Assembly: GCF_000255115.2 (NCBI RefSeq)
Contig: NC_018068.1
Location: 3,505,977 to 3,569,976 of the forward strand
Length of the DNA: 64,000 nt
Source: Desulfosporosinus acidiphilus SJ4
GTDB lineage: Bacteria; Bacillota; Desulfitobacteriia; Desulfitobacteriales; Desulfitobacteriaceae
Reading direction: 5' to 3'
Below are positions 28,713-55,822 of the stretch, one piece after another. The stretch's first letter is position 1. Each line of letters opens with the position of its first letter. Both the position numbers and the translations under genes were made by a program. The notes under the pieces are model-generated. The model made no database searches, was not told the DNA's origin, and saw only the letters and a list, made by a program, of their open reading frames with translations.

Positions 28713-31082
28713 TTAATTTGCCTGTTTTTCAGAACCGGCTAAAGGCCGAACCTTTCGAATATCAAAAAAATGAATTGCATTGAGGAGAAGGTATGAATAG
28801 AAAGACCAGTCTCCTGCAATATATTCATCAGAGACTTCCAATGCAGGGTGGCTTATGCGTTTGATATGCTCAATGATTTCCTCATCAAGTCCATGTTTGC
28901 TATTTAAATTCAGCCATTTTATATATAATGCTCCGTGGTCTTTGTCAAAAATGTGTTTCCGGATCTGATATTCACCAGGTTCTAATCCACTTATTGTTAC
29001 GTGAAGATCAATATTTAATTTCCGAAGAAATGTCTCCTCCTGAGAAAGATACGGATTGACATTATTACAGTTCATCAGGACTAACTGATAGCCAAGTTCA
29101 GTTTTTGTCATGATATATTCTGACCCCTGAGCAATGATTTTTCCCCGTAATTTCTTGAAGAATACCATTGCATAATAGGCCGGACGTTTTCCACTAAAAT
29201 AATAAAATAATTCAAGTCCTTCTATTTGAATCAGACGACTGTTATTCTCTTTCTCGTGTAATTCTGTATTAATCCAAAAACCCAAAGAGTTGACGTTTTG
29301 AGCGACGTCTAACGCATTCTTCAGCACAAGGGCACCTCGAAAGAAGATTCCATTGGTATAGCGGGTATCTCCGGAAAGCGTGTTCCAAGCCACAAGGTGA
29401 AGCGGTTTTTCTATATGACTTTGTTTGAGAAACATCTTGAGATGATTCGTTCTTTCTCGAATGTAGTCCTTGGTTAAAAGAAAATGCTCATTGTCCATCT
29501 CGCTAAAATCGATCACTTCATTTTGGTTGGCATCAAAGCCAAAAAAATCAACATTAGCGTTATCCTTAAGCAGCCAGCTATGACTATAGCTTATTTCATC
29601 TCGACTAAAGGGCAAAAAAGCTCCCACTTGAATACCCTGTACCTTTTCCTTGAGCAAATGGTGGAGTTTTAGATAAACCCGACTTGATTCTTTCGCTGGA
29701 ATAGTCGCTCCGGAAGGTTCGGAAAACATAAAAAGCCATGAGGACAAATAATCCTCTCCGTAACATTGCAGACAATGGTTTAATAATTTCTTTAATTGAT
29801 GGAAATAACTCTCTTCATTTAGGACGATTTCCCGATAATCAATATGAACAAAGAGCGACAAGCCTTTCTTCTTCAAAAAATTCAATGCTGCGTCTAAGGT
29901 GAAAAAAGGAGAGGACGTAGCAATTGTCTCATCTGTTTCAGCCACAGGAGAAATCAACGTTTCGTTTAACAAATGCATGACGCCAATATAGGTTAAGCCT
30001 AATTCTTCTTGGACAATTAGAATCTGGGACCTAACATCTTCTCTTAATATAGTTTTCAAATCGCCAATAATCAGGTTGTGCGCAGGATAATGAAGCCTAT
30101 AGAAGTCGGGACTATGTAAATCGAGACGTAATTCATCAAAATAATCATCCGTATTACTGTAGGTACTATCTTCGTCTCTTAATAATAGAGCTAAAGGTCG
30201 TAAGATATCTGGCGAATTAATAGGAGCCGTCTTATCTTCTAAATTAAAGGTATGGACGACATCTGGCGTTTGCTCTTTATGTTTTTCACGATAGGTCCGC
30301 GGAGTTTCGCCATAAAGTTTCTTGAAGAGATCAGTGAAAGATTTTGTATTAGGAAACCCATTATCCATTGAAATTTGTGAGATGGAATGTGAGGTATATA
30401 AAAGATCCTTGAGGCTATGGGTGAGCCGTATATTCATTAAATATTGACTAAATCCAATCCCTAGTTTCTGCTTAAAGTAACGTGATAAGTAACTCGTCGA
30501 TAAATAAAATAGACGAGCCACGCTTTCTTGTGAAATCGGCTGGTCATAATTTTTTTCTAAGTAAGCAGTTATCTGATCCAGCCGCTGGTCATCTGTATCA
30601 ATCTTCCGGAAAACTTGTCCCTCATGTTTAAAGCGACGAATTAGAATAAGCAACATCTGGCAGATTAATCCTTGAATTTCAATCCGGTAACTTTCATCCT
30701 TCCGCAGATAAGTGATAACCACTTCGGCCAGTAATTTGCGGATCTTACCGATCATCGCCTCACGCCCTTGGCCTTCTTCACGGGAATAACACTCAAACCC
30801 AGTCTTTCGGTAGTCTGGATAATATTGCTCGATAAAAGTATCTGAAATATCGAGTAAAAGCACACAATTATTCGCGCTTCCCCGAATTTGGTAAAGCTGA
30901 TTGGGGTTGATTATAATAAAGTCCTTTTCTTCCAAGGAATAAAACCGGCTATTCGTTTCAAGCGTTAAATCACCGCTTATTACCAAAATAAATTTCAGGC
31001 CCGAATTTACTTTGTTAGATATGAACTGTATTCTTTGAAAGATAATCTGAAAATCCGCTATTAAATGATCCAGGGTTAACAC
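28713..31082 (-). CDS. AraC-family regulator fused to a degenerate GH39-like domain
   Basis: A 789-residue protein. Residues about 20-110 form an AraC-type cupin sensor; 165-265 hold two helix-turn-helices (ISQESVARLFYLSTSYLSRYFKQKLG and the second at ISQISMDNGFPNTKSFTDLFKKLYG). Residues about 310-770 resemble a GH39 beta-xylosidase TIM barrel with a C-terminal beta domain. The expected acid/base Asn-Glu-Pro reads SEP (FMFSEPSGA), and at the expected nucleophile motif TEWN the Glu is Ala (LVAWNTLSG). The barrel is therefore probably a sugar sensor, not an enzyme. No glycan-use genes are adjacent. Confidence 0.82.
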   Translation of the reverse strand: MLTLDHLIADFQIIFQRIQFISNKVNSGLKFILVISGDLTLETNSRFYSLEEKDFIIINPNQLYQIRGSANNCVLLLDISDTFIEQYYPDYRKTGFECYSREEGQGREAMIGKIRKLLAEVVITYLRKDESYRIEIQGLICQMLLILIRRFKHEGQVFRKIDTDDQRLDQITAYLEKNYDQPISQESVARLFYLSTSYLSRYFKQKLGIGFSQYLMNIRLTHSLKDLLYTSHSISQISMDNGFPNTKSFTDLFKKLYGETPRTYREKHKEQTPDVVHTFNLEDKTAPINSPDILRPLALLLRDEDSTYSNTDDYFDELRLDLHSPDFYRLHYPAHNLIIGDLKTILREDVRSQILIVQEELGLTYIGVMHLLNETLISPVAETDETIATSSPFFTLDAALNFLKKKGLSLFVHIDYREIVLNEESYFHQLKKLLNHCLQCYGEDYLSSWLFMFSEPSGATIPAKESSRVYLKLHHLLKEKVQGIQVGAFLPFSRDEISYSHSWLLKDNANVDFFGFDANQNEVIDFSEMDNEHFLLTKDYIRERTNHLKMFLKQSHIEKPLHLVAWNTLSGDTRYTNGIFFRGALVLKNALDVAQNVNSLGFWINTELHEKENNSRLIQIEGLELFYYFSGKRPAYYAMVFFKKLRGKIIAQGSEYIMTKTELGYQLVLMNCNNVNPYLSQEETFLRKLNIDLHVTISGLEPGEYQIRKHIFDKDHGALYIKWLNLNSKHGLDEEIIEHIKRISHPALEVSDEYIAGDWSFYSYLLLNAIHFFDIRKVRPLAGSEKQAN

Positions 31083-34800: not shown

Positions 34801-34835
34801 AAAAAAATTGAGCCAATAGCTTTTAGCCATTAGCT
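34801..34835 (-). terminator. Terminator downstream of the glycosyltransferase operon
   Basis: GAGCCAATAGC pairs with GCCATTAGCTC (with one mismatch) around a TTTTA loop, followed on the minus strand by TTTTTTT. It closes the transcript that includes the sensor gene, the glycosyltransferase and the CWB2 relic. Confidence 0.85.
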
Positions 34836-34902
34836 CATCACACGACATTCCAGCATAATACCGACATAGGAGCCGAAATGATATCAACGTGCCTCGACCG
34901 CG

Positions 34903-35178: not shown

Positions 35179-38100
35179 CTATACCTTTGCTGTGAACCCC
35201 CTTCTCACCGGTTTATCCCAGCCACCGGGTTTTTTCAGCATGTTCAAATAGCCCCCCACGCGCCATAAACTAAAAAGCTGTCTGGGGCCAAAATTCTCAA
35301 TTATGGCGTAAATTATTAGTAGCATGATATCACGCAGCTTGAAATACGTCTTGTCTTTTTCCGCAATGAGTAACGAAGAGACGGATACAAGCACACCCAT
35401 TAAAATGGTAGATATAAAGAGAAGAAGGGCAATTTGAGCATTTAGTAACCCTAATATAAAAGCTGCGATGACCATGAGATAACCCAAGGCTTCAAGAAGA
35501 GGACCGATCATCTCAAAGAATAGAAAATAAGGCATGGCAACAATCCCTATTCTGCCATATCTCGGATTAAACAACATCGTTTTATGAAACGTTAAGATGT
35601 CTATCAGACCCTTGTGCCAGCGATAGCGCTGTTTCTTTAAACTTTCGAGATCTTCAGGGACTTCCGTCCAGCAATTGGCATTGAAGGCGTAACAAATTCT
35701 ATAGTTTTGGCCCAACTCTCTCATTAACCTGCTGATACGAACAACTAACTCCATATCTTCGCCTACAGTATCTTTAGCATATTTACCGCTGCTCGTGAGA
35801 TACCCGCCAACGCTGATAACTCGTTCCTTTCGGAAGAGGCCAAATGCTCCGGAAATAATGAGCAAACTATTCGTTAAAGCCCAGCCCAAACGCCCGGCCA
35901 TAAACGCCCTGATATATTCGATGGTTTGAAATCGCGCTAACGGATTCTCGGGTATCCGAACATCTTTAATTTGCCCCCGTTCAATGGTACACCCATTGAT
36001 AGGAAAGATATTTCCGCCTAACGCCGGTGTTTCAACACCCTTGTCTAACGTCAGTGAAGCTAATTTAAGCAAAGCATCATCTTCAAGCAGAGAATCGGCA
36101 TCAATCCCACAGAAATATTCTTTGTTGGAGATATTGATTCCTGCGTTTAGGGAGTCAGCTTTCCCCCCATTATCCTTGTCTACAACAATAAGTTTGGGAA
36201 TTGAACGATTCTGATAAACCCCTCGTATAGGCTTCGTGTTTAATTTATTGTCAAACACATAATCAACCCTCATCAGATCAAAATAGTTAATTAACACTTC
36301 CAGAGTATTATCTTTTGATCCGTCATTAACAATGACAAGTTCATAGTCGGGGTATTTGAGATTAAGCAGTGAATTAGCACTCTCAATAATCGTTTTTTCT
36401 TCATTGTAGGCCGGAGCAATAATCGAAATAGTGGGAAGCATTTTAGGCTTAAACAAGAGGGAAAGACTTTTTATCCTCCATAGTTTGAGCTGTTTTTTTA
36501 CATTAACATAGGAAAGTGCCAGCAGGGTCAGATAGATCAAATTAATGGTTATAGAGTAATAAGCTAGGTAATAGTTAAAATCGATGACAAATAGCTTGAC
36601 TTGTTCCGCAAGAGGGGCTGTAAAAAGAATATCCTGATGCCTTAGGCAATAAAGAGTGGGGAAAAATACAAGGATTGAGAACAAGATAAGATAAAGGCTG
36701 CGGATAAGCTTCCAGTCCTTTTGTTCTTCCTTTTTAGCCGGTATCTCCTCAGTCTTAATCAGACCACATTTATGGACAAGTCTCTCATTTAAGTAGCGCT
36801 TAAATTCGTTCTTATGTTTGTCAGATTGCCTGATGACGTCTTTAATAATCGCCAACAGTTCATTTTCAAGGTCCAAGTCCTTGTTTTTATTTAAGAAATC
36901 AATAACTTCGCTGGTATGTCCTAGAAGAATGACCTGCTTAATAATGTCTCCGACCGCTTTTCCGTCCTGTTTACCCAATTTCATAATGAAATAAGCTATT
37001 TTATTAGCCAGAATTTCGGATAACCTGAGGCGAACCGCGGAGTCTTTTTCTTTTTCGAATTGCTTTACTACCACATGGATATAACTGGGATTGCGTTCAA
37101 TGATTTTGGTAACGGAATTAACCACACTTCTGGCATTGCCCTCATTGTTCAGCAGAGAAAGCACCTTGGTTAAATTACCCAGCGTCTTAATGTTGGCCAG
37201 TGATTGAATCGCAAGGTTTCTAAGCTCTATATCCTCGGAACTTAAGTACTTAGGATGATCCAAAACTTTAGGATAATAGCGCGCCAATATATCAGCGGCC
37301 TTGTAAACCAATTTAGTATAGTTTTCCTTATAATTGACACTGACGGGAAGTACTTGGTGTCTTTGGCACACGTAAGATGAGCTGACTGCTCCTTGGAATT
37401 TACAAACGCCTTTGTCCTGATCCTCTGATCCAGCATAAAAAATGCAGTTACGGCATGCTTTCTCAGTACTAGCTCCATAGAGAGTCTGAAGTTTCTTAAT
37501 GGCTTCCTCTTTACAATCGATTAATTCCAGCAAATAGTCTTTTACAGTCTCAGAAAAATTGACAGACGCAAAATCTACAATGAGTTCCTTAATCTCAATA
37601 AGTTCGCTGCCGGAAATTTGAGTTAAATAGGCGTTGAAAGCGTCCCCAAAGTCTGAGATTAACATATTTACCCGTTCTCTATACCAACGATGAGAATTTT
37701 TTAATGAGGAAACGAGCACCGGCAGTGATTCAGGGTCAGCAATCTCCGTCAAAGCATTGGCAATATATAATTTGACAGGATAATCTTTTTCCCGCAAAAT
37801 AGCCTTTTCCATTGCTATCCGAGCAGCATCGTTTCCCATGAACCCAAGAAAAACAGCTGCCTCAATTCTCTTTATTCGGGACCTGGATTTAAGCTTTTGC
37901 AAATAGTTCCTATTGGATTTGAATATATCCACGGCTTTGTTGACATTTCCAATAGTTTGCTCATTCAGTTCAATAGTCTCCCTAAGATTTAAATAGTTGA
38001 TAATCAAACCTTTTTGTTTTAGATCGACAATTTTTCCCGATAATAATTTCAACAATCTTCGTTGCTGTTCTAATGATATCCCTTCAGCTATAGAATTGTG

Positions 38101-38193
38101 GAGTCTTCCGTACAGCAAGCTGCCAATTATAACGAGATTTAAAGCGCTTAAGAAAAAGACAACAACCATGCTAAGCTGAATACTATAGTTCAT
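35179..38193 (-). CDS. HEAT-repeat glycosyltransferase family 2, processive type, with a four-Cys motif
   Basis: A 1004-residue membrane protein. An N-terminal helix precedes a long helical HEAT-like region (about 100-480). Within it is a cysteine motif Cx2Cx13Cx11C at about residues 246-280, a candidate metal or Fe-S site. Two membrane helices (about 495-560) precede the GT2 domain: IAPAYNEEKTI, VNDGSKDNT, GIDADSLL and KKQRYRWHKG (QxxRW). C-terminal membrane helices follow. This is the layout of PgaC/BcsA-like exopolysaccharide synthases. Its ATG overlaps the upstream sensor stop as ATGA, so translation is coupled. Confidence 0.88.
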   Translation of the reverse strand: MNYSIQLSMVVVFFLSALNLVIIGSLLYGRLHNSIAEGISLEQQRRLLKLLSGKIVDLKQKGLIINYLNLRETIELNEQTIGNVNKAVDIFKSNRNYLQKLKSRSRIKRIEAAVFLGFMGNDAARIAMEKAILREKDYPVKLYIANALTEIADPESLPVLVSSLKNSHRWYRERVNMLISDFGDAFNAYLTQISGSELIEIKELIVDFASVNFSETVKDYLLELIDCKEEAIKKLQTLYGASTEKACRNCIFYAGSEDQDKGVCKFQGAVSSSYVCQRHQVLPVSVNYKENYTKLVYKAADILARYYPKVLDHPKYLSSEDIELRNLAIQSLANIKTLGNLTKVLSLLNNEGNARSVVNSVTKIIERNPSYIHVVVKQFEKEKDSAVRLRLSEILANKIAYFIMKLGKQDGKAVGDIIKQVILLGHTSEVIDFLNKNKDLDLENELLAIIKDVIRQSDKHKNEFKRYLNERLVHKCGLIKTEEIPAKKEEQKDWKLIRSLYLILFSILVFFPTLYCLRHQDILFTAPLAEQVKLFVIDFNYYLAYYSITINLIYLTLLALSYVNVKKQLKLWRIKSLSLLFKPKMLPTISIIAPAYNEEKTIIESANSLLNLKYPDYELVIVNDGSKDNTLEVLINYFDLMRVDYVFDNKLNTKPIRGVYQNRSIPKLIVVDKDNGGKADSLNAGINISNKEYFCGIDADSLLEDDALLKLASLTLDKGVETPALGGNIFPINGCTIERGQIKDVRIPENPLARFQTIEYIRAFMAGRLGWALTNSLLIISGAFGLFRKERVISVGGYLTSSGKYAKDTVGEDMELVVRISRLMRELGQNYRICYAFNANCWTEVPEDLESLKKQRYRWHKGLIDILTFHKTMLFNPRYGRIGIVAMPYFLFFEMIGPLLEALGYLMVIAAFILGLLNAQIALLLFISTILMGVLVSVSSLLIAEKDKTYFKLRDIMLLIIYAIIENFGPRQLFSLWRVGGYLNMLKKPGGWDKPVRRGFTAKV

Positions 38194-40214
38194 AGAAAAG
38201 CTGCTCCTTTGACCCTATTGGTAACTAAACCAAGTAATTCAGAAAGCATAAAGGGTTTTTTAAGATAATGGTCTATATTTAAGCTCATGGCTCTCTTGAC
38301 CGAATCGTCATTTTTTAAATGTGAGATGAGAATAAAGGGAATATTCTTGGTATGGGATTGAGACAAAAGTTTTTCGCGGACTAAAAAGCCGTCTATTTTC
38401 GGGATCATAACGTCTGAAATAATGAGATCCAAGCTTTGCCTTTCAGCAATCTCCAGGGCTTGTTCCCCGTCGTTCGCTGTAAAAACTTGATAATTTAAAC
38501 TTTCCAGGAAGGTTTTCAAAACATCGATACTCATAGCATCGTTATCTACTACCAAAATTCTGCCTAGCTCCTCTTGATAGGTTTCTACCGAAGAGCTTTG
38601 ACACACGATGTTCATACCCATATTTTTGGCAAGCCTTACTCTCATGAGGGCAATATTATACAATGCTTCAGCAGGATCGTTGACATAGGTATCCAGATCC
38701 CTTATTTCTTCCAAACTAATGACCCCAATGGATACCGTTATTTTCTCAATAAACTTATTGGAAGCGGCGATCTCATTTCGAACCTTTTCTGCAAATTCTA
38801 CAGCTGTTTCCTTTAAGATGTGCGGAAGATAGCAGGCAAAGGATGCACCCTGAAGCCTAAATAAAACCGTATTTTCATCTTTGAGGTCATTTATTATGTA
38901 AACAATGTTCTTTAAAACCTCATCAACTTCTTTATCGCCGTATGAGAATTTGATTTTAGCCATATTGTCGGTATTAATAAGGATTAGAGCCGGGTTTTGA
39001 TAAAACTGTTCAGTAAGTAAATCTTTCAGTTCACTCTCCAGATAATTTCTAAAAAATTGATAGTTATATAAACCCGTAACAGGACATTTAATAAGACTCT
39101 CCTGAGCCTCTCTAACACTGTTATTAAGTTTATCATTCATTTCCTTAAGTCTTACGTTTTCGTTCGTTAGATTGACAGCTTCTTCTTCAGCTCGCTTTAA
39201 GGTTGTAATAAATACCTCCGGAATTGAGATATCATATTCCTCGGCTAACCGTTTGACAAAAGGTTCAATGACTATAAGCCACTGTAGTCCTTTGCGAGCC
39301 AAAAAACGTTCGAACAGCAAATTCCACAGTACCTTACCTGTATAATTATAATCGGAAATTTCCAAAGTCTCTTGATCAAAACTGATATCTAAGTCATTAA
39401 TTGCTTCAAGTACTTCGGTCTTGTTAAAAATAGCTGCATAGCGCTTAAAGACTAAGCTGCAGATTAATTGATACCCGCCAGACTTAGCAAGATCTTTTTT
39501 AAGCGGGGCCATAAATGCCCCGCATTCTAAATCCCTTAAGGCCTTTATATACTTTGTCACGTTATTCCTAATAATCGATCCATGTTGAGGAGCGATCATA
39601 GATATGTCCATGCCGAGGAAGACTTCCATAACAGGTCTTAAGATATCATTAGAAGGCATGTAGTGTTCATGAAACGTTTTCATTTTCTCAAGATAATCTT
39701 CTCCGGCATAAAGACTCCAGCCGTAGGAAAAGGCTCCAAAAAGATCACTGGAAAATAGGGTCTTTGAAGAATAATCGTACGTTGCTATAGCGCCTGGAAA
39801 ATGAAGATACGGTGTTTGTACAAAACCCAAAACTCTCCCTGATTTTAAAGTTAGCCTGAAGTCGTGTTCGTTTACACTATAGTACTTGGACTTGATACCA
39901 TAATACTTTACTATGGTTTGAGTCCGCCAATGGGTCACAACCTCAAACACTGCACCTTTCTGCTCAAACAAAGGGACACTGGCACACAGGTCTGGATCTT
40001 GGTGATGGAGTACAATGTATTTGATTTTAGCTAAGGGAACTATACTGCAAACATTTTCAAAGACATAATCAAAATCCAGGACTGAGCCGGGATCAATGAG
40101 AACCGCCTCATCTCCATCAATTAGCAGATAGGGATTGCAGTGAAGGCCGCCTTCCTGGTCACTCCCTCCAACCCAAAAGATATCTTCAGCTATTTCAACG
40201 ACATTCGTATTCAT
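38190..40214 (-). CDS. Diiron MBL (FprA-like)/degenerate GGDEF/receiver fusion protein
   Basis: A 674-residue soluble protein. Residues about 1-240 match the FprA/ODP-type beta-lactamase domain; the ligand set is retained: HxDPD in HHQDPDL near 75, His in YLHFPG, Asp in FSSDLFG and His in APQHGS. No flavodoxin domain follows. After a coiled-coil near 335-375 lies a GGDEF-type domain (GLYNYQFF) whose signature reads RLQGASFACYLP, so it cannot make c-di-GMP. Residues about 553-670 form a receiver with phospho-Asp in ISDVMIPK and a Lys in YLKKPF. It overlaps the glycosyltransferase gene by four bases. Confidence 0.85.
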   Translation of the reverse strand: MNTNVVEIAEDIFWVGGSDQEGGLHCNPYLLIDGDEAVLIDPGSVLDFDYVFENVCSIVPLAKIKYIVLHHQDPDLCASVPLFEQKGAVFEVVTHWRTQTIVKYYGIKSKYYSVNEHDFRLTLKSGRVLGFVQTPYLHFPGAIATYDYSSKTLFSSDLFGAFSYGWSLYAGEDYLEKMKTFHEHYMPSNDILRPVMEVFLGMDISMIAPQHGSIIRNNVTKYIKALRDLECGAFMAPLKKDLAKSGGYQLICSLVFKRYAAIFNKTEVLEAINDLDISFDQETLEISDYNYTGKVLWNLLFERFLARKGLQWLIVIEPFVKRLAEEYDISIPEVFITTLKRAEEEAVNLTNENVRLKEMNDKLNNSVREAQESLIKCPVTGLYNYQFFRNYLESELKDLLTEQFYQNPALILINTDNMAKIKFSYGDKEVDEVLKNIVYIINDLKDENTVLFRLQGASFACYLPHILKETAVEFAEKVRNEIAASNKFIEKITVSIGVISLEEIRDLDTYVNDPAEALYNIALMRVRLAKNMGMNIVCQSSSVETYQEELGRILVVDNDAMSIDVLKTFLESLNYQVFTANDGEQALEIAERQSLDLIISDVMIPKIDGFLVREKLLSQSHTKNIPFILISHLKNDDSVKRAMSLNIDHYLKKPFMLSELLGLVTNRVKGAAFL

Positions 40215-40503
40215 TATTCAACCTTTGGCCCCTTATTTGCAAATTAAATAGTTACGTTTAAAAATTCTCCAATAAATACTTAATTCCTTCATAATTCTAA
40301 ATACAAAATTTGTAAACGTCTTAAAATACGACACAGCTCCATCTAAAAACACTGTAATCAGTCAATTCAAACGCCTGATTACAGTGTTTTCGCCTTCCAA
40401 AAATGGTTCTTGACCTTGTTAGCCACAAGCTACTGGCCAATTAGCTCTATTGAGAACCATCCAACGAATTCTAACTCGGATGGAACTCACGATTATTTCG
40501 AAC
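40215..40503. promoter_or_regulatory. Upstream region of the sensor-glycosyltransferase operon
   Basis: AT-rich leader of about 130 bases upstream of the sensor gene, then the terminator of the LapA gene. No operator was recognised. Confidence 0.35.
40347..40390. terminator. Terminator after the LapA-family gene
   Basis: A perfect 14-base stem AACACTGTAATCAG/CTGATTACAGTGTT with T-runs on both sides, so it can work in either direction. On the minus strand it ends the lapA transcript. Confidence 0.85.
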
Positions 40504-40791
40504 TCACTTAGCTTCAGGTTCTGGTGTTTCCTCCTTCTCTTTATGAGCTATTACATCACTGGTTGCGAGTGGTTTAGAATTAACCGCTTTCTTCCTTTTG
40601 TATCTGAACTCTCTCCATATCGCTAAAAGGAACACAATAAGGGCTCCTGCTAAAGCCGAGGCCAAAATCACTAAAACCAGGGGGACTTTTTCCGTAACCC
40701 AGAAAAATTGAATTATTACCGAATCAGCATTTTGCACGGCAAAAATCGCAACAAGCAAAGCAAAGACTAAAGTCAATATTAAGATGATCAT
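40504..40791 (-). CDS. LapA-family (DUF1049) small membrane protein
   Basis: A 95-residue protein with two hydrophobic helices (MIILILTLVFALLVAIFAVQ and VPLVLVILASALAGALIVFLL), the conserved FAVQNADSVIIQFF block between them, and an acidic/basic tail (KKAVNS through EETPEPEAK). This matches the LapA/YciS-like domain family, whose members scaffold lipid or envelope assembly in some bacteria. It is a single gene with its own terminator; role here unknown. Confidence 0.82.
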   Translation of the reverse strand: MIILILTLVFALLVAIFAVQNADSVIIQFFWVTEKVPLVLVILASALAGALIVFLLAIWREFRYKRKKAVNSKPLATSDVIAHKEKEETPEPEAK

Positions 40792-49602: not shown

Positions 49603-49629
49603 ACCATTGTCCTCTTTGCATAATTCTAT

Positions 49630-49775
49630 AGGCAGGTCTTCTGACTTATAGACTCCAAGGTACGCCTTCCCAGTCTCCCAGTGGCATATGTACATTTTCA
49701 TCGTCTAATTACAGTGGTGGGTCCGTACCGAATTTTCATCGGTTTCCCTATTCTCCCTGTATTGGGGCACCTATA
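49630..49775 (-). promoter_or_regulatory. Cobalamin (adenosylcobalamin-class) riboswitch 1
   Basis: On the minus strand it begins GGTGCCCC and contains GGGAATAGGGAAAC-like, CGGTACGGACCCACCACTGTA-like and the B12 box GCCACTGGGAG then CTGGGAAGGC, ending in GACCTGCC. These are the conserved pieces of the B12 aptamer. It sits between cobT and the ECF operon and is followed by a terminator, so bound cobalamin should switch off the transporter. Confidence 0.93.
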
Positions 49776-49820
49776 AAATCGTATTTAACTGTGCGTAGTC
49801 GGCATTTCTGTGGTTTATGA

Positions 49821-50939
49821 TTAAAAGTCTCCTGTACTTACACCTGCTGATTCGAAGGTGGCCATTTCATCGGCGATCTTGAGAGCAGCTTCAACCATCG
49901 GAAACATGAGAGCAGCTCCTGTACCTTCACCTAATCTCATGTTAAAATCAAGCCTCGGTTTGAGGCCAAGTTGCTTGAGGGCTATCCGGTGACCTTGTTC
50001 TTCTGAATTGTGGGAAGAAATCATATAGAGAGCTGAGAGAGGAGCAATCTGAGCTGCTGTAAGTGCGGCAGCAGTTGAGATAATACCGTCGAGAATAATG
50101 GGTACATGCTGGTAGGCCGCTTCCAGGATTGCACCTGCCAGTGCAGCAATTTCCAATCCACCGATTTTGGCAAGGGTATCGAGAGGGTCAGCAAGGTCAG
50201 GCTCATTTACCCGAATCGCCAGCTTGATTACATCTTGTTTATGCTTTAAGGCGTCATCCTTTAATCCAGTGCCGCGCCCTGTAACTTCCTCAACCGTATG
50301 GCCTGTAAAAGCTGAAATTAAAGCAGCGCTGGGAGTTGTATTGCCGATACCAACTTCACCTGTTGCCAATAAATTGATTCCAGAGTCAATTGCCTCTGCA
50401 GCAACTTTTGCACCGGTGAGAAGAGCGAGAAGAGCCTCTTGCTTTGTCATTGCCGGGCCATGGGCTATATTTCCTGTTCCGTTTTTGACACGGTTGGCCA
50501 TAAGTTCAGGGGGATCTAAGGGTAAGGCAATGCCTATGTCGGTACAGATAACTTTAGCTCCGCTATTTCGAGCAAGGACATTGATACCTGCCTCGCCATT
50601 TAAGTAAGAATAGAACATTTGTGCAGTAATTTCTTGAGGGGCAGCACTGACTCCTTCAGCTACAACTCCATGATCTCCGGCCATAAGAAGTACTGCTTTT
50701 CCCTTGATTTCCGGTTGAGAAGTGCGTTGGATTCCTGCAAGTTGTTGGGAAATATCCTCCAAGACACCTAAACTCCTAAGAGGCTTTATCTTAGCATCCA
50801 GTCGTTTTTGCATGCCTGAGATAGACTCTTGATCGAGTTTTTCAATTCCATTCGTAAGCTCTTGTAAAGCAGCCTCAAGTTGTTGGATATCCGCTTTTTT
50901 GAGATTGTCAAGGCCATGAATTTTCTTCAGTGTAGTCAT
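49821..50939 (-). CDS. cobT: Nicotinate-nucleotide--dimethylbenzimidazole phosphoribosyltransferase
   Basis: A 372-residue enzyme that makes alpha-ribazole phosphate for the lower ligand of B12. Signatures: AGDHGVVAEGVSA near residue 87, GIGNTTPSAALI, GRGTGLKD, ILDGIISTAAAL, and GEGTGAALMFPMVEAA with the catalytic Glu near the end. The gene is alone behind riboswitch 2 and immediately precedes riboswitch 1; no other cob genes are in the window, suggesting salvage and remodelling here. Confidence 0.95.
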   Translation of the reverse strand: MTTLKKIHGLDNLKKADIQQLEAALQELTNGIEKLDQESISGMQKRLDAKIKPLRSLGVLEDISQQLAGIQRTSQPEIKGKAVLLMAGDHGVVAEGVSAAPQEITAQMFYSYLNGEAGINVLARNSGAKVICTDIGIALPLDPPELMANRVKNGTGNIAHGPAMTKQEALLALLTGAKVAAEAIDSGINLLATGEVGIGNTTPSAALISAFTGHTVEEVTGRGTGLKDDALKHKQDVIKLAIRVNEPDLADPLDTLAKIGGLEIAALAGAILEAAYQHVPIILDGIISTAAALTAAQIAPLSALYMISSHNSEEQGHRIALKQLGLKPRLDFNMRLGEGTGAALMFPMVEAALKIADEMATFESAGVSTGDF

Positions 50940-51010: not shown

Positions 51011-51054
51011 GCCGTCATCGCCGCCGCTATTCTATAGTCGATAGCCTCTCTCTT

Positions 51055-51200
51055 AGGCAGGTCTCCTGACTCAGACTCAATCGCCCTTAACGCTCCTTCC
51101 CAGCATATGCCAGTGGATTAGCGAGGACTCGTCTCTACAGTGGTGGGTCCGTACCGGGTTTTCACCGGTTTCCCTATTCTCCCCTTATTGGGGCACCTAA
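51055..51200 (-). promoter_or_regulatory. Cobalamin riboswitch 2
   Basis: The same conserved pieces as riboswitch 1 are seen on the minus strand: GGTGCCCC, GGGAATAGGGAAACCGG, ACGGACCCACCACTGTA, a B12 box variant CCACTGGCATATGCTGGGAA, and GTCAGGAGACCTGCC at the end. It controls cobT through the terminator at 50973-51010. Confidence 0.95.
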
Positions 51201-51277
51201 AAGCAAATATTAATTTATAATTCTGAGTTTACCAAAATCTCACTAAAAGTCAAGTTAAGATTAAACGGTTTTCTGAG

Positions 51278-54200
51278 TTAAAAATATTTCCCTATCAACT
51301 GACCAAGCTGCTGTTCAATCTCTTTACTCACGACGGCCTCTCCCCCAAATATAGTCGCCCCGATCAGTTTTTTTCCTTTCAGATAATTCACAACTTGATC
51401 GGAAAGACTTCCGTCTGCCAGAATAATCGAGGTGTTGTGGTTAGCTGCATAGACACTTCCAGCTAAGGCATCCGGAAAGTTGTTGCCTGTAGCGATACAA
51501 ACGCTTTGCCTTGCCAAGTTAAAGTATTGGCCCACGGCCAGGGAGGTATCGTAGCGGTCCTGTCCAGCAATTCTTACGATATTTGTTTTGTCTAATGAGG
51601 TGATCTGGTCTACCTGACTTTCCACCGCCGAGCTGATAACCCCTTCTCCTCCGATAATATAAACTTTGCTGGGTTTAATAGTGGCTATTTCATTTTTGAC
51701 GGCATCACTGAGTCCGTCTTTTTGGACTAGGAGTATGGGATACTGCATTTCCGCTGCAATACTGCTGATGGACAGAGCGTCCGGATAGTTTTCTCCATAG
51801 GCCAGTACAATGGGTGTTCCGTTCTTGACCTGTAATTGATCTGCAATTTTAACGCAAGTATCATATCTGTCATTTCCACCTAATCTGGTGATATCGGCGA
51901 AACCACTCGCTGTTACTTTACCTTCCATGGCACTGCTGACGACCGCCGTGCCTCCTATGATATAGACTGTTCCTGCCGGGTCAAGATTTGACTTCATGTA
52001 GTCCAATACCTTTTCCTGGTCAGCATCTGAACTTCCCACTAATAATATAGGTGCATTCAGCTTGTAGGCTAGGACACTTCCGGCTAAGGCATCAGGATAG
52101 TTCTCTGCCGTGGCTAGTACAACATTAGAGAGCTTCCCAGTGTAGTTTGCATTAGCAATGGCCAATGCAGTATCAACTTGGCTCATGCCTGCAAGTCTTA
52201 TGACTCCTAAGCTGGTTTGATTCATTTTGAAATTCCATTTGACGATATCCTGTTCCACAGAGATTGTCGGGCTTGTATATTGGTTATATCCATCCTTGGT
52301 GGCCACGAGGTAGTAATCTGTCGTTGGGAAGACCATGAAGCCATAGGCTCCATACGCATCACTGGTCTGCGGATCTTGATTATTGTTGGGCTTAAATCCG
52401 TCAATACCCGGTAAGGATACGACGGTATCCGGGGTTTTGCCATTGGTCTTGTTTCGTTCCGTATTGGCATAATACAAGGTAACCTTTGCTCCGACAATGG
52501 GTTTGCCCGTCGCCGCATCCGTAATGATGCCATAGGGATCAATTAAGGAGCATTTTAAACTGACAGTTCCATCCTTCGAAACGATGACTTCCAGAGTTCC
52601 AAGCGTAAGCGTTTGTCCGTTGCCTAAATCGTAGGTGATCTTATATTGATTGTCCGTTCCTTTGGCCAGGTTCTGAAGATTGATAGTCCCATCAGCTGAA
52701 ACGGTTACCGACGAACCCCCTATTGATACGTAGCTTACTTTAGAAAGATCACTTAAAGAGCTCGATGTTCCGTCAGGTTGTTGAAAGGTTACAGTTTGAG
52801 CCGCCTTCATGGAAACGGTATAATTTCCGTTACTATCTGTCGTTACGGTTCCTGTCAGATTGGAAACAACTGTACCGGTCGTGCCATTGATGACATTGCC
52901 AGTTATGGTCGTTCCTCCGCCGGATGTGCTTCCACCTCCGGAGAAACCTCCTCCACCCCCTTCGTGTGTAGAATCAGGTTCCGCTTCAAACACTGCCGAT
53001 ATAATGACACTGGCCGCCGGCATCGTGAAGCTCGTGCCGCTGATCGGGTAATCCGTTGTTCCGTCATTATACTTTAGTGTCCCCGGTGTTAACTTCATTC
53101 CAGCATTCGGGGTTATCGTCAAGTTAATAGCTGTTCCTGAAGTTGCTGAAGTTGGGTTAGCCGTAATACTTCCCCCAGTCAGACTTCCGATACTCACCGT
53201 ATAACTGTTTGCTGGAATCTGCTCAAACTGGGCGGAGACCGTCACACTGGCCGCCGGCATCGTGAAGCTCGTGCCGCTGATCGGGTAATCTGTTGTTCCG
53301 TCATTATACTTTAGTGTCCCCGGTGTTAACTTCATTCCGGCATTCGGGGTTATCGTCAAGTTAATAGCTGTTCCTGAAGTTGCTGAAGTTGGGTTAGCCG
53401 TAATACTTCCCCCAGTCAGACTTCCGATGGTCACGCTGTAGGTAGTAGGAACTACCGGGGCCGGATCAGTGGTTACAGTGACTGAATTGGAGTTCCCCGC
53501 GTTTGCTCCCCCGGTCACCAACAACCTGAAGTCATAGCCGGTCGCTGGACTAAGACCTGTTACTGTGGCTGTCGTCGCATCAACGGCTATCGCCCCTGAA
53601 GTTGTGCTTGCCGTCGTCCAGGTGTTGGCTCCGCTCGGCGACTGCTGGATGATAACACCTGTCGCCCCGCTGGCTGCCGTCCAGGTGAATGTCACTGTGC
53701 TGGAGGTCTTTGCCGTAGTTGCAAAGTCTGATATCGGCACTACATCGGTGGTAAATGTTTCGTCTGAGCCGTCTGTCGTCCCTCCTGAATTGACTCCTTC
53801 TACTCTGTAATGATAGGTCATATTCGGTTGCAGACCTGTAATAGCAGCACTCACAGGTGTATCGGCTGAACCTGTCACCGGGCTTTGGCCGGCTGGTGCT
53901 GTGCTTCCATAGCTCGTTGAAGTGCCGTAGTCAAAGGTTACGGTCGTACTGTCTCCATGGGCGTTGATTGTCCCGTTCAATGTGGCGCCGCTGCTTGTTA
54001 CATTTGTTGCCGTATTGGTCGTTGCTGCCGGAAGTACCTTCGCTGTGAAATTATTGGCACTTGTAGCTGAGACCGCGCCGGAGGCTAAATATCGGGTACC
54101 GCTGGTTGTCATTAAAACGGTGTCCGCGGAGCCTGTCGTCTGTGGCAGCCACAGATAGAGGCTGCCGCTTGCATCTGTCGAGCAGGAAAAAGAACTTCCT

Positions 54201-55489
54201 CCGTTGACTGAATACGACATGCCGGCAGAAGCCGGCAGACCCGATATTGTGACAAGATATTCTTGGTTATTGCTGCTGTTATACACGGTGGGCTGGATTG
54301 AGCTTGCCTTTACAGACCCGCCGTTAATGGTCGACGTGCCGCCGCTGCCGCCGCTGCCGCCGCCGATGCCGCTGCCACTGCCGCTTCCGCCAATGCCGCC
54401 TGTTGCAGTAACCGTGCCGCCGTTGATGGTCACATTGCCGCCGCTGCCGCCGCTGCCGCTGCCACCGCCGCCACCAATGCCGCTGCCGCTGCCGTTGAAG
54501 TAAATGCCGTCGCCGCCTGTTGCAGTAACCGTGCCGCCGTTGATAGTCACAGTGCCGCCGCTGCCGCCGATGCCGGTGCCGGGGTCGATTGAGCCGCCAC
54601 CGCCGCCGCCAATGCCGCTACCGCCACCGGTAGTGCCGCCGCTGCTGCCGCCTGTTGCAGTAACCGTGCCGCCGTTGATGGTCACAGTGCCGCCGCTACC
54701 GCCGACAATGTAGTTGTCATAGCTGCCGCCGCCGCCGATGCCGCTGCCGCCGCCGCCACCACCGCCTGTTGCAGTAACCATGCCACCGTTGATGGTCACA
54801 GTGCCGCCGCTACCGCCGACGAAGCCGCTGCCGCCGCCGATGCCGCTGCCACTGCCTCTGCCGAAGCCGCTGCCGCCGCCACCGCCTGTTGCAGTAACCG
54901 TGCCGCCGTTGATGGTCACAGTGCCGCCGCTGCCGCCGTTGATGCCGCTGCCGCCGCTGACGCCGCCAATGCCGCTGCCGCCGCCATTGCTGCCGCTGCC
55001 GCCTGTCGCCACAAGGGAACCAGTACTGTCAGCGGTTATGTTGAGGGTGGCGTATGAAGGCACGCCAAGTCCCGCGTTATAGCTAGAGCCGGCATTCAGG
55101 GTATTGGAGCCAATTAGAGTTAAGTCTACCGTCGTTCCGTTATTGATCAAAAACGGACATGCACTGCTGGTGTTGATGTTGACATTTTCCATGGTGATAT
55201 TTAATGTGCCAAGGTTTGCGCCTACCGTCACATAATTTGCGGTTGGGGTGCTTGGACTGCTGTCTGTTATGGTGATTGCCTGACTAGTTGTAATATTATC
55301 TACAGGCTGTCCGCTGCCACAGGATACTTTAATACCGAAATTCGTACCTGCAGATATCTGGATATTCCCTTGGGAAATATCATAGGTATAGGGATTCGTA
55401 TTCGCCATAGCGGTAGTGGTATAACCCGGCAAAAACGTTAAAAAACACAATGCCACCACCATGGCTAAGGCTGCATATTTGTTCCTCAT
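51278..55489 (-). CDS. Large surface protein: glycine-rich repeats, FnIII, duplicated domain, triple CWB2
   Basis: A 1403-residue exported protein. Signal peptide: residues about 1-29 (LAMVVALCFLTFLPGYTTTAMA). About 160-383: six glycine-rich repeats built on GGTVTINGGTVTATGG, likely a beta-helix. About 486-677: two fibronectin III domains. About 680-840: two nearly identical 79-residue InlB-like repeats. About 950-1090: a carboxypeptidase-regulatory-like domain. About 1095-1403: three CWB2 repeats (RLAG, RYDT, YPDALAGS, YIIGG) that anchor to cell-wall polymers in clostridia. GGAGG precedes the ATG at 55489. Probably an adhesin. Confidence 0.88.
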   Translation of the reverse strand: MRNKYAALAMVVALCFLTFLPGYTTTAMANTNPYTYDISQGNIQISAGTNFGIKVSCGSGQPVDNITTSQAITITDSSPSTPTANYVTVGANLGTLNITMENVNINTSSACPFLINNGTTVDLTLIGSNTLNAGSSYNAGLGVPSYATLNITADSTGSLVATGGSGSNGGGSGIGGVSGGSGINGGSGGTVTINGGTVTATGGGGGSGFGRGSGSGIGGGSGFVGGSGGTVTINGGMVTATGGGGGGGSGIGGGGSYDNYIVGGSGGTVTINGGTVTATGGSSGGTTGGGSGIGGGGGGSIDPGTGIGGSGGTVTINGGTVTATGGDGIYFNGSGSGIGGGGGSGSGGSGGNVTINGGTVTATGGIGGSGSGSGIGGGSGGSGGTSTINGGSVKASSIQPTVYNSSNNQEYLVTISGLPASAGMSYSVNGGSSFSCSTDASGSLYLWLPQTTGSADTVLMTTSGTRYLASGAVSATSANNFTAKVLPAATTNTATNVTSSGATLNGTINAHGDSTTVTFDYGTSTSYGSTAPAGQSPVTGSADTPVSAAITGLQPNMTYHYRVEGVNSGGTTDGSDETFTTDVVPISDFATTAKTSSTVTFTWTAASGATGVIIQQSPSGANTWTTASTTSGAIAVDATTATVTGLSPATGYDFRLLVTGGANAGNSNSVTVTTDPAPVVPTTYSVTIGSLTGGSITANPTSATSGTAINLTITPNAGMKLTPGTLKYNDGTTDYPISGTSFTMPAASVTVSAQFEQIPANSYTVSIGSLTGGSITANPTSATSGTAINLTITPNAGMKLTPGTLKYNDGTTDYPISGTSFTMPAASVIISAVFEAEPDSTHEGGGGGFSGGGSTSGGGTTITGNVINGTTGTVVSNLTGTVTTDSNGNYTVSMKAAQTVTFQQPDGTSSSLSDLSKVSYVSIGGSSVTVSADGTINLQNLAKGTDNQYKITYDLGNGQTLTLGTLEVIVSKDGTVSLKCSLIDPYGIITDAATGKPIVGAKVTLYYANTERNKTNGKTPDTVVSLPGIDGFKPNNNQDPQTSDAYGAYGFMVFPTTDYYLVATKDGYNQYTSPTISVEQDIVKWNFKMNQTSLGVIRLAGMSQVDTALAIANANYTGKLSNVVLATAENYPDALAGSVLAYKLNAPILLVGSSDADQEKVLDYMKSNLDPAGTVYIIGGTAVVSSAMEGKVTASGFADITRLGGNDRYDTCVKIADQLQVKNGTPIVLAYGENYPDALSISSIAAEMQYPILLVQKDGLSDAVKNEIATIKPSKVYIIGGEGVISSAVESQVDQITSLDKTNIVRIAGQDRYDTSLAVGQYFNLARQSVCIATGNNFPDALAGSVYAANHNTSIILADGSLSDQVVNYLKGKKLIGATIFGGEAVVSKEIEQQLGQLIGKYF
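53008..53431. repeat. Tandem near-identical duplication, 237-base period
   Basis: The stretches 53008-53194 and 53245-53431 differ at only two positions that I can find (T/C near 53051/53288 and A/G near 53091/53328). They encode two copies of the InlB-like repeat inside the surface protein. Recent duplication or gene conversion is likely. Confidence 0.9.
54330..55010. repeat. Glycine-codon-rich direct repeats
   Basis: Six imperfect copies of a repeat whose minus strand reads GGCGGCACGGT then an ACTATCAACGGCGGC-like core. The plus strand shows runs of ccgccgctgccg. It encodes the glycine-rich beta-helix of the surface protein and is prone to slippage. Confidence 0.85.
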
Positions 55490-55822
55490 CTTCACGCCTC
55501 CGTTTTTAATTTTCATTGGAAAGCTTTCCATAGCTTGTTACCCGTACTTAAAAAAAAACTGACTTGCGCCCATGATCATAGGGTTGATATCCAGCTGCGA
55601 TATTGCATTCAACGCATTTCTTGTACGTCATTTCGCTATTTCCTTATTTGGCGGCGAACGCACTTAAACCTCACCCCTTGGCTTCATTGTTATTATTTCG
55701 ATGGTTCATGTTCTCGTGACTTTACATAGAAAGAGTCATTAGACCTAAAAGCATGCTACAGGGAGCTTTCGGGCATTTGTAATAATATGCTATTGATTTT
55801 TATAACAGGTATGTGACAACCT
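55490..55822. promoter_or_regulatory. Upstream region of the surface protein gene
   Basis: About 330 bases of leader. No known riboswitch was recognised; a GCATGC palindrome lies near 55751. It presumably contains the surface-protein promoter, which could be a target of the response regulator at 58266-58994. Confidence 0.35.

Follow-up and report, generated by a model that had tools for sequence, protein, structure and literature searches.

Two forms of control that bear on the locus studied here are known: sensing by ODP proteins, and the governing of an exopolysaccharide synthase by a degenerate GGDEF protein. Among ODP proteins, a sensor of O2/Fe(II) has been published, as passages of PMC7319448, PMC7666581 and PMC6978683 record. 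The T. denticola ODP (TDE2498), treated along with ODP-signalling fusions by Muok et al. 2019 (as relayed in parts of PMC7319448 and PMC7666581), has no flavodoxin and acts as a cytoplasmic O2/iron sensor via protein contact, modulating a chemotaxis receptor. Fusions of ODPs to signalling domains, or operons shared with them, are already on record and have been grouped (passages of PMC7319448). PelD (P. aeruginosa; B. cereus pel, PMC7112168) is a degenerate GGDEF regulator encoded with, and controlling, synthase-dependent exopolysaccharide, and it needs an RxxD motif and cyclic di-GMP (c-di-GMP). YdaK, encoded with YdaLMN in a Gram-positive operon of B. subtilis (PMC5422440), is a membrane protein with a degenerate GGDEF domain that needs its own RxxD and activates putative glycosyltransferases. 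Here we analyzed a stretch of 64,000 nucleotides from the strict anaerobe Desulfosporosinus acidiphilus SJ4 (NC_018068.1, positions 3,505,977 to 3,569,976; hereafter the window), in which a gene for an ODP-bearing sensor overlaps one for a HEAT-repeat family 2 glycosyltransferase (GT2). The sensor's ODP domain belongs to the same family as the T. denticola protein but is fused to a middle domain, a degenerate GGDEF domain and a receiver, and is paired with a polysaccharide synthase. Unlike PelD, the sensor has no RxxD; the synthase machinery also differs, and HEAT repeats are not mentioned for Pel in PMC7112168. YdaK, for its part, has no ODP, receiver or HEAT region.

The pair is a conserved unit. 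In all ten genomes with a full-length sensor, which fall into two distant groups, a fused HEAT-GT2 is encoded by the next gene downstream. Direct coupling between sensor and synthase is likely on this evidence, and we give about even chances to the fuller reading, in which the operon lets a cytoplasmic diiron sensor of the ODP type control a membrane polysaccharide synthase post-translationally. The original prediction, made from the letters of the window, had described a 674-residue protein overlapping a glycosyltransferase gene by ATGA, and its lengths, coordinates and overlap proved exact. Both open reading frames (ORFs) were confirmed, at 674 and 1004 residues, with an overlap of 4 nucleotides that reads ...TCTATGAAC...; profile E-values as low as 5e-63, together with conservation in distant genomes, exclude chance ORFs. 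The pair is laid out as follows, with the basis of each assignment in brackets.

38190..40214, minus strand: sensor gene (gene 1), 674 residues, ODP, middle, degenerate GGDEF and receiver domains (ORF list, Pfam, PDB sequence match)
39579..40145, minus strand: ODP diiron metallo-beta-lactamase domain, residues 24-212, ligands H71, D73, D75, H138, D157 and H211 (Pfam PF19583, PDB 6qrq)
39099..39509, minus strand: helical middle domain, residues 236-372, with a terminal long helix at 333-375 (conservation and model)
38655..39083, minus strand: degenerate GGDEF domain, residues 378-520, RLQGASF and no RxxD (Pfam, motif check)
38226..38558, minus strand: C-terminal receiver domain, residues 553-663, with Asp601 (Pfam, alignment)
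38190..38193, minus strand: ATGA stop/start overlap of genes 1 and 2 (read in the sequence)
35179..38193, minus strand: fused HEAT-GT2 synthase gene (gene 2), 1004 residues (ORF list, Pfam, model)
38113..38169, minus strand: N-terminal predicted transmembrane helix of the synthase, residues 9-27 (hydropathy)
36772..37920, minus strand: HEAT solenoid of the synthase, residues 92-474, split by the Cys insert (HEAT_2 and alphaRep matches, model)
37306..37497, minus strand: clade-specific insert, about residues 233-296, four-Cys motif at 247-276 (alignment of fused synthases)
35584..36435, minus strand: GT2 catalytic domain, residues 587-870, VNDGS / GIDADS / GEDME / QRYRW (Pfam, motif check)

The N-terminal domain of the sensor matches the ODP profile (PF19583) with an E-value of 4.7e-63 and 213 bits against a gathering threshold of 27.2. 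In a PDB sequence search its closest solved relative is the oxygen-binding T. denticola ODP (6qrq, E 2.9e-29), while flavodiiron proteins match more weakly (E about 3e-11). The diiron ligands (H71-Q-D73-P-D75, H138, D157 and H211) are all present, and the six are invariant in all ten full-length sensors. An earlier description of this domain as an FprA-type diiron metallo-beta-lactamase with its ligands kept and no flavodoxin was therefore right on the ligands and on the flavodoxin, for which a Pfam scan of gene 1 was negative, but the FprA-type assignment was rejected in favor of ODP: the residue after HxDPD is Leu (HQDPDL) where the FprA-type HxExDH has His, and both the ODP profile and 6qrq fit better. 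A real FprA-like protein of 406 residues, with HTEPDH and an attached flavodoxin-like half, is encoded in the same genome. Binding of two irons by the sensor is very probable given the intact ligand set. That O2 is the physiological ligand is favored somewhat less firmly, on the strength of ODP family membership.

Flavodiiron proteins reduce nitric oxide (NO) or O2. With such relatives, the ODP domain might instead be an enzyme or an iron/NO sensor, so that the unit would link iron or NO status to polysaccharide and O2 would not be the physiological cue; the title of a work cited in part of PMC7319448 does call ODP an Fe(II) and oxygen sensor. However, the same Pfam scan found neither flavodoxin nor rubredoxin attached to the domain, hence no built-in electron donor for turnover, and the ODP-like HxDPD-Leu pattern is kept rather than HxExDH. 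We regard this alternative as unlikely.

Between ODP and GGDEF lies a domain overlooked in the original prediction. This middle domain (about 236-372) is common to all homologues, including a sensor form without ODP from Heliophilum, and its helices are seen in the predicted structure with moderate confidence. Four further loci (L031, L073, L075 and L076, in genomes G102, G245, G145 and G269, respectively) show a related arrangement. There an in-frame ORF of about 97 residues, homologous to the middle domain and with a GTG start, comes after the stop codon (TAG or TAA) of the ODP gene; a Shine-Dalgarno-like AGGAGG overlaps the ODP stop in the TAG cases. Substitutions fall preferentially at third codon positions, and these genomes seem to encode ODP and middle domain as a coupled pair of genes.

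The GGDEF domain (Pfam E 1.3e-17) carries the signature RLQGASF at 453 and is followed by the C-terminal receiver, both as originally reported. The signature is degenerate in all ten sensors (RLQGASF, KLQGFTF, KLQGVNF, KLQGVVF, ELQGFTF, RLQGFAF, RLEGPVF, RLQGTEI and similar), and we rejected an active diguanylate cyclase. The domain might still be a c-di-GMP or GTP receptor that activates the synthase on nucleotide binding, with ODP tuning the response. Both YdaK of B. subtilis (PMC5422440) and PelD of the Pel system (PMC7112168) are degenerate GGDEF proteins that are encoded with the synthase and control exopolysaccharide; in the phylum, one related locus has an intact GGEEF protein and another an AGDEF-receiver protein beside HEAT-GT2. 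However, the RxxD inhibitory site upstream of the signature is absent in all ten full-length sensors, with DENT at that place in the window, and the catalytic signature is absent as well. We therefore rejected an RxxD receptor of the PelD/YdaK type. Because PelD and YdaK both need RxxD, conventional c-di-GMP output or input through the domain is unlikely, and we consider nucleotide-triggered activation improbable.

The receiver (Response_reg, E 1.7e-22) raises a different possibility, that a histidine kinase phosphorylates Asp601 as the main switch while ODP and GGDEF modulate. The window sensor keeps Asp601, Ser631 and Lys653, and the Asp and acidic pair are kept in many receivers beside separate HEAT-GT2 pairs elsewhere. 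Across the sensors themselves, however, Asp occupies the phospho-site in the window only: eight of the other nine have Glu and one has Gly, and Glu is also found in the ODP-less Heliophilum form. The second residue of the acidic pair is Asn in the window, is Asn, Ser or Ala in nine of ten sensors overall and is lost in the tenth. In the window, the genes next to the pair include no kinase. Phosphorylation as a family-wide switch is thus unlikely, and we find a phosphorylation-driven main switch doubtful. The most likely output, given these motif losses, would be direct protein contact with the HEAT region rather than c-di-GMP synthesis, canonical c-di-GMP binding or, across the family, phosphorylation.

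Gene 2 had been described as a processive family 2 glycosyltransferase with HEAT-like repeats, and each of these parts was recovered: a HEAT profile (HEAT_2, E 2.9e-9), a helical solenoid in the model and a GT2 profile (E 2.7e-21) with its motifs. The HEAT region matches alphaRep HEAT-like proteins at E 8e-28, and its model, with a predicted local distance difference test (pLDDT) of about 80, aligns with HEAT/ARM proteins at VIA-align Z up to 16. DGS, DAD, GED and QxxRW are intact, and more membrane segments follow C-terminal of the GT2 domain, so that the D, DxD, (T/G)ED and QxxRW motifs and C-terminal membrane segments expected of a processive GT2 synthase are all present in the predicted protein. 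The top curated match of the GT2 part is PgaC/IcaA (TIGR03937, E 3e-35), but a score of 121.9 against a cut-off of 422.3 bits led us to reject a poly-N-acetylglucosamine synthase. A glycoside hydrolase family 16 (GH16) gene lies near all seven Acetobacterium loci, and in six of them it immediately precedes the sensor gene. Among curated families it matches beta-glucanases best, which hints at a beta-glucan as the polymer in Acetobacterium.

The synthase also carries a Cx2Cx13Cx11C motif (C247 to C276), present as first written and proposed as a second redox input. It sits in an insert of about 60 residues within a loop of the HEAT solenoid. Of the 12 fused synthases compared (window, G005 of the same genus, seven Acetobacterium, G034, G733 and Heliophilum), the window, G005 and six Acetobacterium proteins keep it in this form and the seventh Acetobacterium as Cx2Cx14Cx11C, while G034, G733 and Heliophilum lack the entire insert. 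As a clade-specific insert, the motif lies outside the core unit, and its role as a general redox input was rejected; strict conservation within the window's clade of nine does suggest that the insert is probably metal-binding or redox-active. Structure prediction, proposed originally as a check, gave a confident surrounding solenoid and left the insert unstructured (pLDDT 24-37), with no Cys geometry. A HiPIP-like 4Fe-4S domain was considered for the insert and rejected (HIPIP 15.1 against a gathering threshold of 22 bits, E 0.028); the Acetobacterium and G005 homologues gave no HIPIP match at E 0.1.

The full-length sensor occurs in nine genomes besides the window's: seven of 19 Acetobacterium genomes, a metagenome-assembled genome of the Desulfitobacteriaceae (G034) and G733, a clostridial-class genome that is the one further case among 391 genomes of Acetobacterium's class. 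Eight of the ten pairs overlap by exactly 4 nucleotides, and one by up to 11. In the window's own class, an ODP-bearing sensor was found in two of 83 genomes (its own and G034), and in its genus in one of 30 searched, again its own. In G005, a fused synthase 74% identical to the window's ends at the contig end, and the position of gene 1 lies beyond the contig. The expected conservation as neighbors was thus borne out, and the expected spread across Peptococcaceae-type genomes was not. The window sensor is 60% identical to that of Acetobacterium versus 51% to that of G034 from its own family; in a tree of the GT2 part, the window and G005 group with Acetobacterium (support 98/97), and fused HEAT-GT2s form a single clade (support 100/100, with 11 of the 12 included). 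The distribution is patchy and is most simply read as a probable horizontal transfer. A search of plasmids returned only short ODP proteins (one fusobacterium). In Heliophilum fasciatum (G079), the form without ODP retains middle, GGDEF and receiver domains and still adjoins a HEAT-GT2, as one would expect were HEAT addressed by the C-terminal part of the sensor, with the N-terminal part serving as an exchangeable input.

Unfused GT2s were found in 26 further sampled genomes of the phylum and in five genomes of the same genus. In the 19 unfused loci examined, the GT2 is adjoined by a separate HEAT protein or an uncharacterised ORF of the same size, and in 15 of these a receiver protein stands directly beside the HEAT-GT2 pair. 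Of the 15 receiver proteins, three are GGDEF-receiver proteins and one carries a DivIVA-like N-terminus; a further unfused locus has the intact GGEEF protein. These uncharacterised clusters of receiver, HEAT, GT2 and GH-like genes share the HEAT and GT2 machinery of the window, but encode HEAT and GT2 separately, and no ODP is present in any of the neighboring regulators examined. No description of HEAT-GT2 clusters was found in the literature searched. Many HEAT-GT2 loci also encode a conserved GH-like protein of about 700 residues, TIM-barrel-like in look (L065:13042-16209, L021:8065-10179, L024:5687-7843 and others), with no match in PDB sequences, Pfam or NCBIfam. In Acetobacterium its homologue is encoded third in the operon and carries a fused 370-residue domain; the Heliophilum synthase has this domain as its C-terminal extension. 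Homologues of this partner and of GH16 were not found in the window's own genome in searches with matching controls.

From gene order, overlap, co-conservation, fusion and the retention or loss of motifs, all seen directly, we infer a route whose deduced elements are the iron, O2 as ligand, the docking step and the direction of the response. The ODP domain would bind two irons and O2 (or sense Fe(II)), changing how it packs against the middle domain and the long helix. This change would pass via the pseudo-GGDEF domain to the C-terminal (pseudo-)receiver, which would dock on the GT2-fused HEAT solenoid and so switch polymer extrusion. In this scheme HEAT would serve as the adaptor through which a receiver-type regulator reaches the synthase; this clade carries it fused to the synthase, and elsewhere it has a gene of its own. 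We lean, with some hesitation, toward O2 switching synthesis on, with slime as protection or for aggregation; the opposite sign is possible. Several observations weigh against this route. Receiver docking on HEAT comes from gene order and fusion alone; the window receiver keeps Asp601, leaving phosphorylation possible there; the ODP domain could be an enzyme, or sense iron or NO; counted from the first start, the G034 genes are separated by a 27-nucleotide gap instead of overlapping; and confidence in the sensor model is low, with a predicted template modelling score of 0.33 and pLDDT mostly <50 in the ODP part (four-sequence alignment).

Two features flank the pair.

40348..40388, minus strand: hairpin then T-run, likely terminator, separating a LapA-like gene from the sensor gene (read from the sequence; its loop exceeds the size allowed by the terminator scan)
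34809..34837, minus strand: terminator-like hairpin 3' of the synthase gene (terminator scan)

Given the likely terminator at 40348..40388, the pair probably has its own promoter. The LapA-domain gene upstream, beyond this hairpin, encodes a small membrane protein (40504-40791, minus strand). Elsewhere in the window, an AraC-type helix-turn-helix protein is fused to a GH39-like domain (28713-31082, minus strand). Two cobalamin riboswitches lie at 49614-49789 and 51039-51215 (minus strand): one precedes a CobT-like phosphoribosyltransferase gene or cobalt transporter genes, and the genes at 49821-50939 lie after or before the other. A 1417-residue surface protein with CWB2, fn3 and InlB-like repeat domains, encoded in a GC-rich stretch (51278-55531, minus strand), adjoins a cobalamin riboswitch.

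As the original prediction had suspected, no description of the sensor-synthase pair was found in the literature searched. Within that literature, the undescribed part is the combination with HEAT-GT2 and the loss of both canonical signalling sites (the receiver Asp in nine of ten). A bolder proposal, which we put forward tentatively, is that GGDEF and receiver are both pseudo-domains and that a diiron O2 sensor gates the synthase directly via a HEAT adaptor, requiring neither second messenger nor phosphorylation, as a nucleotide-free counterpart of PelD-type control; receiver-HEAT-GT2 would then stand as a control module of general use among Gram-positive anaerobes that has so far gone undescribed. 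Little is settled about how a strict anaerobe links a short contact with air to its surface polysaccharide, and the pair offers a small test case with sensor and synthase adjacent and, in the Acetobacterium species that carry it, culturable hosts. If the coupling is direct, control of synthase-dependent exopolysaccharide would bypass c-di-GMP despite the GGDEF fold, and a role would be assigned to the widespread receiver/HEAT/GT2 gene cluster. Recurrence of the pair in acetogens suggests a direct link between oxygen and slime production in some anaerobes.

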